37,215 bases of DNA. It comes from Candidatus Fonsibacter lacus (lineage in GTDB: Bacteria > Actinomycetota > Actinomycetes > Nanopelagicales > Nanopelagicaceae). The stretch covers positions 1 to 37,215 of the forward strand of contig RFXN01000003.1 in the NCBI GenBank assembly GCA_009921625.1, given 5' to 3'. Each line of letters starts with the position of its first letter. Positions within the stretch are counted from its first letter, which is position 1. The notes beneath the pieces were generated by a model, which did not search any database, had not been told where the DNA came from, and was given only the letters and a program-made list of their open reading frames with translations. The position numbers were made by a program, and so were the translations under genes. Of this stretch, positions 13,999 through 23,009 are shown one piece after another.

Positions 13999-14706
13999 CT
14001 AAATGGGTGGCCATGGCACAGCTGGCCAATCCTCTGAAGGAGAAGGGAAAACGGAGCTGTCAATCATTCTGTTGATGCGCGCCAGCGTGGCGTCAATTTC
14101 GCTCTCTGTTAACAAATCGACTGCCATATTCCGAAACTCATTAAATCTTCTTCGGATATCGAATAGCTTTTCGAATTCACCTGATGAGAGTGGCTCTTTA
14201 CGCCATTGCCAAAGAACGGTACGCAACTTATCTTCTTCATGAAAACAGACTCCGTGGTCACAGACAAACAACTCTCCCGTTCGCGAAGGTAAGAGGTGAC
14301 CAATTTTCCGGTCGGTATTATTAATAAGAGAATCAAAGATGACCACGGAACGAAGCCGTTCGTCCCGAGATTGTGCTAAATCGATGATGTCTACATTTTC
14401 ATCAATGTCAATCCATTCTTGCACCGAACCTGGCCCAAATGGCCCTTCGCGCAAGGTAGTGAATGGCACCACATTGAATTGACCAAAAACGCTAAACAAA
14501 TAGGCGGCAACTTCTCGAGCGGCTAACGTGCCATCTGGAAAATCCCAAAGCGGTCGTTCGCCCGCTACCGGTTTATAGATCACTGGAATTTCAGGACCAT
14601 CTTCGACAGTTATGTGACCGTAGAGCGTCGCATTTGAGGCATCGACTAATCGTCCGGTGACAGAAAGTTTGCCACTGGAGATTATTTCTCTAACGTCGAT
14701 AACCAT
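13999..14706 (-). CDS. SCO1664-family protein with PI3/4-kinase-like (HipA-like) fold signature
   Basis: IPVIYKPVAGERPLWDFPDGTLAAREVAAYLFS (Lys loop), VVIFDSLINNTDRKIGHLLP (catalytic-loop-like), LFVCDHGVCF (DxG-like). Start MVIDVREI at 14706 favoured over 14724. Confidence 0.83.
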   Translation of the reverse strand: MVIDVREIISSGKLSVTGRLVDASNATLYGHITVEDGPEIPVIYKPVAGERPLWDFPDGTLAAREVAAYLFSVFGQFNVVPFTTLREGPFGPGSVQEWIDIDENVDIIDLAQSRDERLRSVVIFDSLINNTDRKIGHLLPSRTGELFVCDHGVCFHEEDKLRTVLWQWRKEPLSSGEFEKLFDIRRRFNEFRNMAVDLLTESEIDATLARINRMIDSSVFPSPSEDWPAVPWPPI

Positions 14707-15214
14707 TTGCCCTCGGACAAACATGCCCTTGAGGATCTAACGGAGCGCCACAAAATTGACACGGAGGGCGTCCTGCACCGATAAGCGCAAAGGAATCAAG
14801 AGCAAAGATGAGTGCAGCGTCCATGAGAAGAGTAACTCGAAGTAAGGGTGGCCCTTCATCGCTATCTTCAACGATTTCACTCTCATCTCCCCCCTGTGCT
14901 TCGATAATCAATTCTTCATTTTGCGCGTTCCATGTCAAAGAGAGCGCAGTGACTCGAAATTCTTCACTAAATGGCGTTGCGAGCTGCGGTATCACTCTGT
15001 TCTTTCTTTTGAAATCTGCGGCTTTGCCGATCTTTAATTCTTTAAAGAGAGCAACAATCCGTTCTGACAGAATTGCTAATTGGCCCTTCTCTAGCGCAAC
15101 CGAAATATTCCGCCTCCCGTCGACTGCTTGCAGGTAAAACGTTCGTTCTCCTGGCATGCCGACAGTTCCCGAGATAAATCTCTCTGGAAAGGTGAAGTTA
15201 TGTATTTCGCGCAC
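14690..15214 (-). CDS. DUF3090 family protein with C-terminal zinc-ribbon-like motif
   Basis: Actinobacterial DUF3090 pattern; GRPPCQFCGAPLDPQGHVCPRANGYRR C-terminus; overlaps the kinase-like gene. Confidence 0.85.
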   Translation of the reverse strand: MREIHNFTFPERFISGTVGMPGERTFYLQAVDGRRNISVALEKGQLAILSERIVALFKELKIGKAADFKRKNRVIPQLATPFSEEFRVTALSLTWNAQNEELIIEAQGGDESEIVEDSDEGPPLLRVTLLMDAALIFALDSFALIGAGRPPCQFCGAPLDPQGHVCPRANGYRR

Positions 15215-15228
15215 TAGTTCACTTCCTC

Positions 15229-15927
15229 TCAGCCTTTTCCTTCTATTTTCTTTCCGTCGGTAAGTGGGCGGTGCTCTCCGCCAAGTAGTGACTTGAAGTT
15301 GCTGGCAACTATTGAAGATAGCTCGTGTTCTGTTCGATTATATTGAAGAAGTTTTGCCTTACCTTCGCCGAAATGGGCCACAGTTATGGAGCCGGGTTCA
15401 ACTACGAGCGATTGAAAATTATTTAATTCCATATTTAAAATGTTAGAAATTAGAAATTTAATAATATCTCCATGGCTTACAACTATGAAGTTACGATTAT
15501 CTGTTGAAATTTCTTGCAATTGTTTATAGAAATCTGCAACTCGACGCCAAACTGCTGCAAAATTTTCTCCTCGCGGAAAGGTAACTTCTGCAGGGTTCTG
15601 CTGCACCTGTGTCCACAGACTTTCAGTTGCCAACTCCTCAAGCTTGCGACCGCTCCATAACCCATAATCAGGTTCTATGATTCGAGGTTCGGTCTGCACT
15701 GCGATGTTGTTGCCGAACTCTCTGAGCCAGGGGGTAATAGTTTCCAAGCACCGTTCGAGGGGGCTAACAAAAACACGTTCTATGGGTAGTGGTCCGAGTA
15801 ATCGTGCGAGGTTCTTACTCTGCTCAACTCCACTTTGATCAAGCCGAATGCCTGGGTTTTGACCAGCCAAAATTCCATCCGCATTGGCGGTACTACGCGC
15901 GTGGCGAATAAGAATTACCGTGCCCAA
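15229..15927 (-). CDS. Histidine phosphatase (phosphoglycerate mutase-like) family protein
   Basis: LIRHARSTANADGILAGQNPGIRLDQSG, SPLERCLET, VVSHGDIIKF; TTG start preceded by AGGAGG. Confidence 0.87.
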   Translation of the reverse strand: MGTVILIRHARSTANADGILAGQNPGIRLDQSGVEQSKNLARLLGPLPIERVFVSPLERCLETITPWLREFGNNIAVQTEPRIIEPDYGLWSGRKLEELATESLWTQVQQNPAEVTFPRGENFAAVWRRVADFYKQLQEISTDNRNFIVVSHGDIIKFLISNILNMELNNFQSLVVEPGSITVAHFGEGKAKLLQYNRTEHELSSIVASNFKSLLGGEHRPLTDGKKIEGKG

Positions 15928-18745: not shown

Positions 18746-19612
18746 GTGCGGGTAAAGATAGAACTTGCCGGGGTTAATTTTATTGATGTCTATCACCGTC
18801 GTGGTCAATATCCACTGCACTTGAGTGATGGAACAGGTAGCGGAATCGGGATTGAAGGTATCGGTAGAACACCGGATGGTCATCGAATCTTTTGGTTAAA
18901 CGCTCTTGGCTCCTACGCTCAAGAAATTAATCTGTTCGCTAAAGATATAACTGCACTACCCAAAACATCGCTAGCAAATGAAGAGATACTCCCTCTTCTC
19001 TGTCAGGGGCTAACCGCACATTATTTAGTTGACTCTGCTTTTAGGGTGGAACAGGGGCAATGGGCGCTGGTCACTGCAGCAGCAGGCGGAGTAGGACTTC
19101 TACTCACCCAACTTCTAAAAATTAGAGGGGCCAATGTAATTGCTCTGGCCTCAACTTCTAAAAGAGCAGTGCTCGCAAAAGAACATGGCGCTGACCTTGC
19201 AGGTACCTATCGCGAGCTCGAAGAATTAACAGCGAAAGCCACGGGTGGCGCTGGCGTTGATGTGGTTTTTGATTCTGTTGGAAAAGATTATTTCGATATC
19301 TGCTTAAGTTCCTTAACTTCTTCGGGAATGTATGTTCTTTATGGAGCAGCAAGTGGCCCGGTGCCTCCATTCGATTTAATGCGCCTTAATTCCAAATCAT
19401 TAGCTATTAGAAGGCCAACTCTGGCTACGTATACAGCAACCGAAGCAGAGCGAATTCGGCGCTTGACTGATTTGATTACGCTTGCCGAAGGGAAACTTCT
19501 CCGTTATCCCCGCACGAAGATATTTTCGCTAAGCGAAGTCAAATCTGCACATCAATTAATCGAATCCCGATCTTATACCGGAAAAATCGGGATTGATCCA
19601 TGGAAGATCTAG
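18746..19612 (+). pseudogene. Quinone oxidoreductase-like (zinc-independent MDR) gene, apparently 5'-truncated next to tRNA-Leu
   Basis: AGVNFIDVYHRRGQYP, VTAAAGGVGLLLTQLLK, GGAGVDVVFDSVG. The usual ~28-residue N-terminal segment before (E)QVRVKI is missing; the frame opens into the tRNA 3' end. Confidence 0.72.
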
Positions 19613-20454: not shown

Positions 20455-21964
20455 TTATTCCAAAGTAATTAAATCGTAGTAATCATCGCGCCAGAGATCT
20501 TCGTCGCCATCTGGAAGTAATAACACTCGCTCAGGAGCTAGTGCGCTTACCGCTCCCTCATCATGTGTTACCAACACTATTGCGCCTTGATATTCACGTA
20601 GCGCTCCGAGTATCTCCTCACGCGAGGCAGGATCAAGGTTATTTGTTGGTTCGTCGAGCAATAGAACGTTTGCGGCGCTTACCACCAATTGCGCTAAGGC
20701 TAATCGAGTTCGTTCACCACCACTGAGCACTTTTACCGGTTTAAATACATCGTCCCCGCTAAAGAGGAATGTCCCAAGAACGTTACGCGCTTCGCCTTCA
20801 CTGATATCAACACGCGCTTTTAACATATTTGCCAGCACAGTTTCTTCGTAATTGAGTGATTCGTGCTCCTGGGCGTAGTAACCCAGCCTTAACCCATGCC
20901 CCGGTGCAACTGCCCCGGTATCAGGCTCTAACTCGCCAGCAAGCATTCGCAGCAAAGTTGTTTTGCCTGCGCCATTTAGCCCCAAAATAACTACTCGAGA
21001 TCCCTTATCAATTGCTAGGTCTACATCGGTAAAAACCTCGGTCGAACCGTACGACTTACTTAACTCCGCAGCGGTGAGCGGAGTTTTCCCACATGGAGCA
21101 GGAGATGGAAAACGGAGTTTTGCAACCTTATCTTTTGCTCGCTCTCCTTCAGTTGACGCCATAATTTTCTCTGCCCGTTTAAACATGCTCTGCGCCGCTT
21201 TAGCTTTACTCGCTTTTGCGCGCATTTTCTCGCCTTGCTTTTGGAGAATTTCAGCGCGTTTTTCAGCTATTGCGCGTTCTTTCTTTCTCCGATGTTCATC
21301 TTGTTCACGGGCTAAAAGGTAATTTCGCCATCCCATATTATAAACATCAATCACGTTACGATTAGCATCCAGGTAGAAAATTCGATTAACTACCGTTTCA
21401 ATCAATTTTACATCGTGGCTGATGATGACTAAGCCACCTGAATACTTGCCCAAGAAATCACGGAGCCAGATTATTGAATCTGCATCTAGATGGTTTGTTG
21501 GTTCATCCAAATATCTTTTCAGGCAATCCAAGATTGGTTGCAATCGCTTCTGCATCAGAAGTTGCGCTATAGCCGCCGGCGCTTTGAAACTCTTCTTCAG
21601 CTCGAGCGTACCGTTCCAAAACTTTTTCGAGCTCAGTGCCTTCGCTAGAACTCATCTTCTCTTCTAAAATTCGCATCCGATCGGCAATAGCATCTAAACC
21701 TCGAACTGAGAGAATACGGTTAATCACCGTTCCCTCTTCATCTCCGGTGCGAGGATCTTGAGGTAGATAACCAATACTTCCCGCGCGTAATACTTGGCCG
21801 CCTGCAGGAAGCGTCTCCCCTGCTAGTACTTTTGCGAAGGTTGATTTGCCGGCGCCATTACGCCCTACTAATCCGATTCGATCCCCATGGTTAATACGTA
21901 CCGAAACATCGGCAAGCAACAACCGAGCGCCCGCCCTCAATTCGACGCTTGCAGTGGAAATCAT
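20455..21964 (-). pseudogene. ABC-F ATP-binding protein, broken in the N-terminal ABC domain
   Basis: ORF 21503..22012 has Walker A (GLVGRNGAGKST) then stops after NLGLPEKIFG. ORF 20455..21555 resumes in another frame at LDEPTNHLDADSI and includes a complete second ABC domain (LSGGERTRLALAQL, LLLDEPTNNLD). The first LSGGQ signature is absent. Confidence 0.88.
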
Positions 21965-22057
21965 AGAGAAGATGCTCTCACGAAATATTCTCGATAAACT
22001 CCAACTCCCCAAGATAACCGGAGCCCCGGAGTAACTCTTACGCTGACGGAGTAATAA

Positions 22058-23009
22058 ATGGCTAATGCGCGTGGATATGCGGTAATGAAAGCGAAGGCAG
22101 ACCTAGTTCCCTTCTCATTTGAACGGCGAGCGTTACGTCCAGGCGATGTGGAGATATCAATCAGCCATGCTGGTATCTGTCATTCTGACATTCATCAAGG
22201 GCGTGAAGAATGGGGCCAAGCGATCTTCCCCATGGTTCCAGGACATGAAATTGTTGGACGCGTACGGGGCATTGGTGACGATGTTCGCGGTTTTACCGTT
22301 GGTCAACTAGTAGGTGTTGGAGTTTTTATTGACTCATGTCGAAAGTGTGAGAACTGTCTTGCAGGGCTTGCGCAATATTGCTTTGAAGGAATGACTGGAA
22401 CTTATAACACTATAGAACGAGACGGCACCACCGTTAATGTGTGCCGGCATCACTCTTTACTCGCCACTTCGTCATTGGCAGGCTGGGCCTGGCAAGCGAG
22501 TAGGAATTATCGGTCTTGGTGGTCTAGGTCATATGGGATTGAAGTTTGCTCATGCGATGGGCGCCCATGTCACTGTCTTTTCGCACTCTGAGAAAAAGAA
22601 GAGTGATGCTGAAACTATGGGCGCAGATGCTTTTGTTGCATCTCCTGGAGAGGATTACTTCAAGAAAAATATCAATTCATTTGATTTGATCCTTAACACA
22701 GTATCTGTAGATGTAAATCTTGAAAATTACCTTTCGCTCCTTCGCCTTGATGGAACATTGGTACTTATTGGCTTACCTGGAAAGCCGTATCAAGTTCCTG
22801 CTGGAGTTCTTCTCGGAAAACGTCGTCGATTAGCTGGCTCCATGATTGGTGGTGTACCCGAACTTCAAGAAATGCTCAACTTCTGTGGTGCGAACGGAAT
22901 CACTAGCGATGTCGAATTGATCGACCCCGATTACATTAACAAAGCTTGGGAGCGAACGGTTGCCAGTGATGTTAAATATCGGTTTGTCATTGATGCCAGT
23001 AAGTTTTAA
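22058..23009 (+). pseudogene. Zinc-dependent alcohol dehydrogenase (CAD/YahK-like), internal deletion with frameshift near 22424-22433
   Basis: 5' ORF GHEIVGRVRGIGDDVRGF...[32 protein letters not shown]; 3' ORF in a different frame (APP)[15 protein letters not shown]...[22 protein letters not shown]. Confidence 0.88.

Follow-up and report, generated by a model that had tools for sequence, protein, structure and literature searches.

Three neighboring genes coding for a SCO1664-family kinase, a DUF3090 protein, and a histidine phosphatase form a rigid block across Actinomycetota and Chloroflexota. We tentatively propose, with a probability of roughly 0.4, that this trio is a self-contained reversible-phosphorylation unit, independent of mycothiol, whose most likely target is an inositol-phosphate head group. 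The three families have already been catalogued as NCBI models, and the proximity of SCO1664 to mshC has been published; what is new here is the rigidity of the block, its independence of mycothiol, the predicted type II phosphatidylinositol (PI) 4-kinase (PI4K)–like fold of the kinase, the PUR-like fold predicted for DUF3090, and the nesting of trio genomes among those encoding phosphatidylinositol-phosphate (PIP) synthase.

The trio as a conserved gene block

The window, i.e., the whole 37,215-nucleotide stretch of DNA that was analyzed, contains the following genes on the minus strand, given in the order phosphatase, DUF3090, kinase, mshC:

15229..15927, minus (ORF 15927-15229, TTG start, AGGAGG at 15939-15934): histidine phosphatase of branch 1 (TIGR03848/MSMEG_4193-like, Rv2135c orthologue), first gene of the block; from profile and catalytic residues
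14690..15214, minus (ORF 15214-14690, GTG start, 14-bp gap after the phosphatase): DUF3090 (TIGR03847), predicted two-repeat beta-alpha PUR-like core and C-terminal CxxC-x8-HxC ribbon; from profile, model, Foldseek, and internal repeat
13999..14724, minus (ORF 14724-13999, 35-bp overlap with DUF3090): SCO1664-family kinase (TIGR03843), predicted type II PI4K-like catalytic domain; from profile, predicted structure, and invariant residues
12719..13954, minus (ORF 13954-12719, 44-bp gap after the kinase, just beyond the 13999-15927 segment): mshC (cysteine--GlcN-Ins ligase), downstream neighbor in this class only, outside the trio proper

These coordinates bear out the initial annotation, which had described four minus-strand genes with tiny gaps and an overlap of the kinase and DUF3090 genes; the overlap would be 17 bp if an internal ATG of the kinase gene, preceded by GAGGG, is used. 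All motifs quoted there (VIYKPVAGERPLWDFPDGTL, NNTDRKIGH, CDHGVCF, CQFCGAPLDPQGHVC, and IRHARST) were found. Promoter and terminator scans of the trio block gave results near the shuffled expectation. Beyond mshC lie PAC2 on the plus strand and metH on the minus strand, in the same order as in Tsukamurella.

The kinase matched TIGR03843 (SCO1664 family) over positions 2-253 of 253 with 267.4 bits (E = 1e-79), a full-length score above the curated cutoff of 172.4 that makes it a member of the family. The DUF3090 protein likewise belongs to TIGR03847 (161.9 bits versus a cutoff of 117.25; E = 1e-47) and matched PF11290 with 150.5 bits versus a cutoff of 27 (E = 5e-44). The phosphatase matched PF00300 (E = 4e-41); against TIGR03848 it scored 185.7 bits (E = 7e-55), below the cutoff of 203.85 and hence outside the subfamily as defined, as do many other syntenic phosphatases. 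By position it is the syntenic TIGR03848 counterpart, formally short of the family cutoff. The mshC product matched TIGR03447 (MshC) at E = 1e-161. The window thus has the same families, order, strand, and nearby mshC as the SCO1664/DUF3090/MSMEG_4193 trio (TIGR03843, TIGR03847, and TIGR03848), from which it differs in coming from a 1.35-Mb genome and in a phosphatase that lies below the TIGR03848 cutoff and has lost R173 and D169. This host genome also encodes mshA, Ino1, and PIP synthase. The corresponding genes of Mycobacterium tuberculosis are presumably Rv2133c-Rv2134c-Rv2135c.

Distribution was assessed in 247 evenly sampled Actinomycetota genomes, 99 with the trio and 148 without it. 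DUF3090 and the kinase were each detected in 99 of the 247 genomes, almost all of which also gave a phosphatase match. Among the few discrepancies are a kinase truncated at the end of a contig (G164) and a marginal kinase match of 9e-4 (G166). Order, strand, and residues were counted in 80 loci drawn from trio-bearing Actinomycetota genomes. All three genes were present at 77 of these loci, and at all 77 they followed the order phosphatase-DUF3090-kinase on a single strand, with spacing mostly within 60 bp. Such constancy of order and strand goes far beyond a chance arrangement, and the grouping of the three families as one unit is stronger than the initial annotation had supposed. When a fourth conserved partner was sought among flanking genes, the best neighbor was present at only 19 of the 80 loci.

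A scan of species genomes with the kinase as bait, in which kinase-less loci are invisible, returned 80 loci, 47 of them labeled Chloroflexota. The full ordered trio was found at 31 of the 47, DUF3090 with the kinase at 10, and the kinase alone at 6, gene absences being upper limits since some loci end near the kinase. DUF3090 and the kinase were also present at four loci labeled Tectomicrobia, Nitrospinota, or unnamed. Either of the other two genes, DUF3090 or phosphatase, may be lost from kinase-bait loci. The phosphatase and kinase occur without DUF3090 in Brachybacterium, in Kocuria, and in a second copy in genome G008; in Corynebacterium glutamicum, the kinase and phosphatase models match and the DUF3090 model does not. 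The second phosphatase-kinase pair of G008 (L102, G008:C17:145000-161500) lies ~245 kb away from a complete trio. Plasmid-borne copies were considered and set aside, because the matches in Tsukamurella and Nonomuraea seem to lie in chromosomal sequence that was deposited under a plasmid label.

The mshC neighbor and mycothiol

The initial annotation had suggested a link between the trio and mycothiol, a reading that the distribution of MshC largely refutes. MshC scored above the cutoff in only 22 of the 247 Actinomycetota genomes, all within the window's class. It was absent, by the same cutoff, from 77 of the 99 trio genomes, 43 of which had no match even at 1e-100. Outside the class, all 10 sub-cutoff matches to the MshC model that were checked carried PHHExE, which we take to be the zinc-site signature of cysteinyl-tRNA synthetase (CysRS), and they were therefore read as CysRS; the corresponding motif is PHHTMC in the window MshC and PHHEMG and PHHEMS in the two class members checked. 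Judged by co-occurrence with MshC, the trio is not part of the mycothiol system.

Among 113 genomes of the window's class, the kinase was found in 108 and MshC in 106. Where both were located (105 genomes), mshC followed the kinase on the same strand, no more than 3.5 kb away, in 93 and at a distance of ≤60 bp in 57; the 12 exceptions had the two genes on separate contigs (7), more than 500 kb apart on one contig (3), or on opposite strands (2). A single-contig genome of the window's family (G330) has the phosphatase and kinase and no MshC match at E ≤ 1e-140; genome G302 has MshC and no kinase. Adjacency of mshC to the trio is thus confined to one class, and profiling against MshC together with the neighborhood check shows the trio to be independent of mshC, contrary to the dependence considered earlier. 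The proximity is an old class-specific arrangement and not a functional requirement; mshC would have been appended to the block in the window's class, perhaps only as a housekeeping neighbor.

A mycothiol module, with the phosphatase acting as MshA2 (which dephosphorylates GlcNAc-Ins-3-phosphate) and mycothiol synthesis under the control of the kinase and DUF3090, would agree with the position of mshC in those 93 genomes, with the published close linkage of SCO1664 to mshC (Chater's review, PMC4255298), and with the presence of MshA2 as a step in the mycothiol scheme of PMC9736012. Against it stand the trio genomes that have no MshC, the CysRS nature of the sub-cutoff matches, the retention of the trio in Chloroflexota, and the phosphatase and kinase kept by G330 without mshC. 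We regard it as highly improbable, and mycothiol as the general function of the trio was rejected on distribution.

Predicted folds and active sites

The predicted structure of the kinase has a mean pLDDT of 93.5. Its first 11 matches in the PDB are all type II PI 4-kinases (best, 4hne; E = 3e-8, TM 0.64); later matches include PI4KIII, PI3K, and Fam20 among others, with TkArkI at rank 22. The single kinase sequence gave no match in the PDB, while a profile of 78 homologues found PI4KII-beta (E = 2.6e-4), with corresponding GSxQLF, NxDR, and IDNGL segments. The Pfam model PI3_PI4_kinase (PF00454) matched 63 of the 78 homologues at E ≤ 0.01 (best, 1.7e-11); the window kinase itself scored 21.7 bits, under the gathering threshold of 27.1, and so is not a formal member. 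The HipA_2 model matched 11 of the 78 homologues (best E = 6e-6) and the window kinase at E = 0.002, under the Pfam cutoff.

Residues K51, E71, D138, R139, K140, H143, and D156 of the kinase are invariant, so that the Lys, the catalytic Asp, and the metal Asp of the type II PI4K fold are in place. With PI4KII alpha and beta (PDB 4hne and 4wtv), the kinase shares the fold, the YKP..GE.P Lys loop, the NxDR catalytic loop, and the IDHG/IDNG metal site; it differs in its ~15% identity, its length of 241 residues, and a His in place of the usual metal-binding Asn (DRKxGH). HipA/HipA_2 kinases are distant members of the same superfamily, but the partner genes differ and no HipB-type antitoxin neighbor was seen. 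The PI3/4K-like kinase proposed in the initial annotation is therefore upheld by the top fold matches and by ATP-site residues that show no loss in the alignment. Together, the fold match and the invariant ATP-site residues make it most likely that the kinase is an active enzyme. The predicted fold narrows the substrate without fixing it, since relatives phosphorylate lipids or proteins.

The structure predicted for DUF3090 (pLDDT 86.8) consists largely of beta strands, plus two helices. In Foldseek, PUR-alpha repeats took the first seven places among its PDB matches (E = 1.7e-3 to 8e-3, TM 0.3-0.5), and when the two halves of the protein are compared, the final strand and helix of one align with those of the other (P = 3e-4). 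The predicted core may share the beta-alpha two-repeat topology of PUR-alpha (PURA), but the structural significance is weak, and Pfam and PDB profile searches gave no PUR sequence match. As a lead, DUF3090 looks like a two-repeat PUR-type fold.

G19, G22, R24, E42, K43, and R149 of the DUF3090 core are invariant, and C152, C155, H164, and C166 of the ribbon, a CxxC..HxC noted before (PMC9425974), are present in >90% of Actinomycetota members. The ribbon is missing from many Chloroflexota members, which keep the core, and from all those labeled Tectomicrobia or Nitrospinota. The idea that the zinc ribbon is what matters most in DUF3090 was rejected, the ribbon being dispensable and the core kept without it. 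The CxxC tail is present, but the zinc-ribbon adaptor that it had suggested is weakened; from the module of kinase, phosphatase, and adaptor put forward in the initial annotation, the single unit and the PI3/4K-like kinase with an intact ATP site stand.

In the phosphatase, R8, H9, R59, and H152 are invariant and E85 is present in 78 of the 80 members; the window protein has all five and so the residues of branch 1 of the histidine phosphatase superfamily. IRHARST, earlier taken as a departure from the usual RHGxT, is ordinary variation, with Gly (RHG) at position 10 in 47 and Ala (RHA) in 32 of the 80 orthologues. R173 (79 of 80) and D169 (77 of 80) are near-universal, and both are replaced in the window's genus, so the window phosphatase may be drifting or changed in specificity. 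Several other genera of the window's family keep both residues (L214, L215, L218, and L223).

The orthologous Rv2135c of M. tuberculosis, which shares the catalytic residues and for which RHA was already reported, has weak acid phosphatase activity, occurs in membrane fractions, and handles soluble substrates poorly, with a Km of 8-14 mM (PMC3866925). The earlier view that the trio families had no published function thus fails for the phosphatase, the reported activity being unspecific, and holds for the kinase and DUF3090, for which no function was found in the literature searched. At seven loci without the histidine phosphatase (L138, L139, L154, L165, L172, L176, and L182), an inositol-monophosphatase (IMPase)–family gene lies downstream of the kinase. 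The case for it as a replacement phosphatase is only circumstantial, because it is always on the opposite strand and its specificity is undecided.

Possible substrates of the unit

With calls made at E ≤ 1e-20, most of which fall below the model cutoff outside the window's class, PIP synthase was found in 98 of the 99 trio genomes versus 70 of the 148 genomes without the trio; the figures for Ino1 were 95 of 99 and 74 of 148. Trio genomes are almost a subset of PIP-synthase genomes, a co-occurrence that is confounded by descent. Two lineage contrasts follow the same pattern: Family f9 lacks both the trio and PIP synthase, while the other sampled families of its class have both, and genome G039 lacks both, while the remaining three genomes of family f32 have both. 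PI synthesis does not need the trio, because 70 PIP-synthase genomes are without it. Transposon screens give weak indications for DUF3090 mutants: MSMEG_4192 was altered with dibucaine (log2 1.49, P = 0.045; PMC10127668) and BCG_2151c with rifampicin (log2 −1.42; PMC11329110). Each strand is weak; taken together, the nesting with PIP synthase and Ino1, the lineage contrasts, and the DUF3090-mutant phenotypes make a membrane or inositol-phosphate substrate more likely than mycothiol, protein, or RNA.

In the mechanism we prefer, the kinase would pass a phosphate from ATP to the substrate through its type II PI4K-like domain, and the phosphatase, by way of a phosphohistidine at H9, would strip phosphate from that substrate or a close relative of it. 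DUF3090, a small protein with two putative PUR-like repeats, would hold or regulate the pair. The most likely substrate would be an inositol-phosphate head group at the membrane (PI, PI phosphates, or a soluble inositol phosphate). In favor of this mechanism are the gene block kept in two phyla, the PI4KII fold and profile matches of the kinase, the conserved active sites of both enzymes, the nesting among PIP-synthase and Ino1 genomes, and the membrane location of Rv2135c with its poor activity on soluble substrates. Against this stand the 70 PIP-synthase genomes without the trio and the phylum-wide confounding by descent, the protein kinases with PI4K-like folds (HipA, Fam20, and CtkA), the Chloroflexota kinase loci without the phosphatase (10 with DUF3090 and 6 alone), the Actinomycetota without DUF3090, and the PUR-like fold, which suggests nucleic acid rather than lipid. 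Stress-induced PI3P has reportedly been described in mycobacteria by Morita and colleagues. In a bolder form that we think unlikely, the trio would be a native phosphoinositide switch: The kinase would make phosphorylated PI and be a candidate source of PI3P, the phosphatase would reverse this and might also be the missing PIP phosphatase, and DUF3090 would be a regulator of a new type, the whole being an ancient endogenous counterpart of PI4KII signaling in Actinomycetota and Chloroflexota. A link to F420, shared by these two phyla, was dropped, since C. glutamicum has the kinase and phosphatase; to our knowledge, it is a species without F420.

The fold also admits a HipA/Fam20/CtkA-like kinase acting on protein Ser/Thr, possibly on DUF3090 or another cytosolic protein, with the phosphatase as the reversing enzyme. 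The HipA_2 matches, the Fam20 structures in the fold list, and the placement of the DUF3090 gene between both enzymes, overlapping the kinase gene here, are consistent with such a protein switch, but the closest structures are lipid kinases and not HipA or Fam20. Moreover, DUF3090 cannot be the sole target, because the kinase and phosphatase persist where it has been lost (Kocuria, Brachybacterium, and the second copy in G008). The usual substrates of branch-1 histidine phosphatases are small molecules, which also counts against a protein substrate, and we hold this reading to be rather unlikely. An RNA substrate appears very unlikely: PUR-like DUF3090 would bind RNA or single-stranded DNA and present it to the kinase, as for ArkI on tRNA, with the phosphatase as eraser. 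The PUR-alpha matches and aligned half-repeats, the commonness of C-terminal zinc ribbons in nucleic-acid proteins, and the presence of TkArkI in the kinase fold list point that way, but the resemblance to PUR is weak (E = 1.7e-3, TM ~0.4), DUF3090 is losable while the kinase and phosphatase stay, and the kinase is nearer to PI4KII than to ArkI.

Mycobacteria make PI via PIP and a "yet-unidentified phosphatase" (PMC6506517), and the trio phosphatase could be this missing enzyme, while the kinase would govern the reverse step to a phosphoinositide. The near-nesting in PIP-synthase genomes (98 of 99) and the membrane association of Rv2135c fit this proposal, but the 70 PIP-synthase genomes without the trio and the kinase loci that the phosphatase does not adjoin speak against it. 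PI is essential in mycobacteria, whereas Rv2135c is, we assume, dispensable, so redundancy would be needed; we judge the proposal quite unlikely.

Most actinobacteria, pathogens and antibiotic producers among them, carry the trio families. The status of the trio as a unit, its independence of mycothiol, and its nesting in inositol-lipid makers redirect experiments to inositol phosphates and the membrane, and make its members candidates for both the missing phosphatase in mycobacterial PI synthesis (PMC6506517) and the source of PI3P in bacteria.

Elsewhere in the window, an ABC-type ATPase is split, as if frameshifted, into two overlapping minus-strand ORFs (20455-22012; N-terminal ABC domain at 21503-22012, second ABC domain and ABC_tran_Xtn at 20455-21555), and the gene for a zinc alcohol dehydrogenase is broken into two ORFs on the plus strand (22058-23009; ADH_N at 22058-22591, ADH_zinc_N at 22437-23009). 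These neighboring breaks suggest assembly error or decay. The profile match of a quinone-reductase-like ORF at 18746-19612 begins only near position 31, so either the start of this ORF is missing or it sits farther upstream in a different frame. A lipid (diacylglycerol) kinase of the YegS/Rv2252/BmrU type directly follows tatC at 1402-2322.
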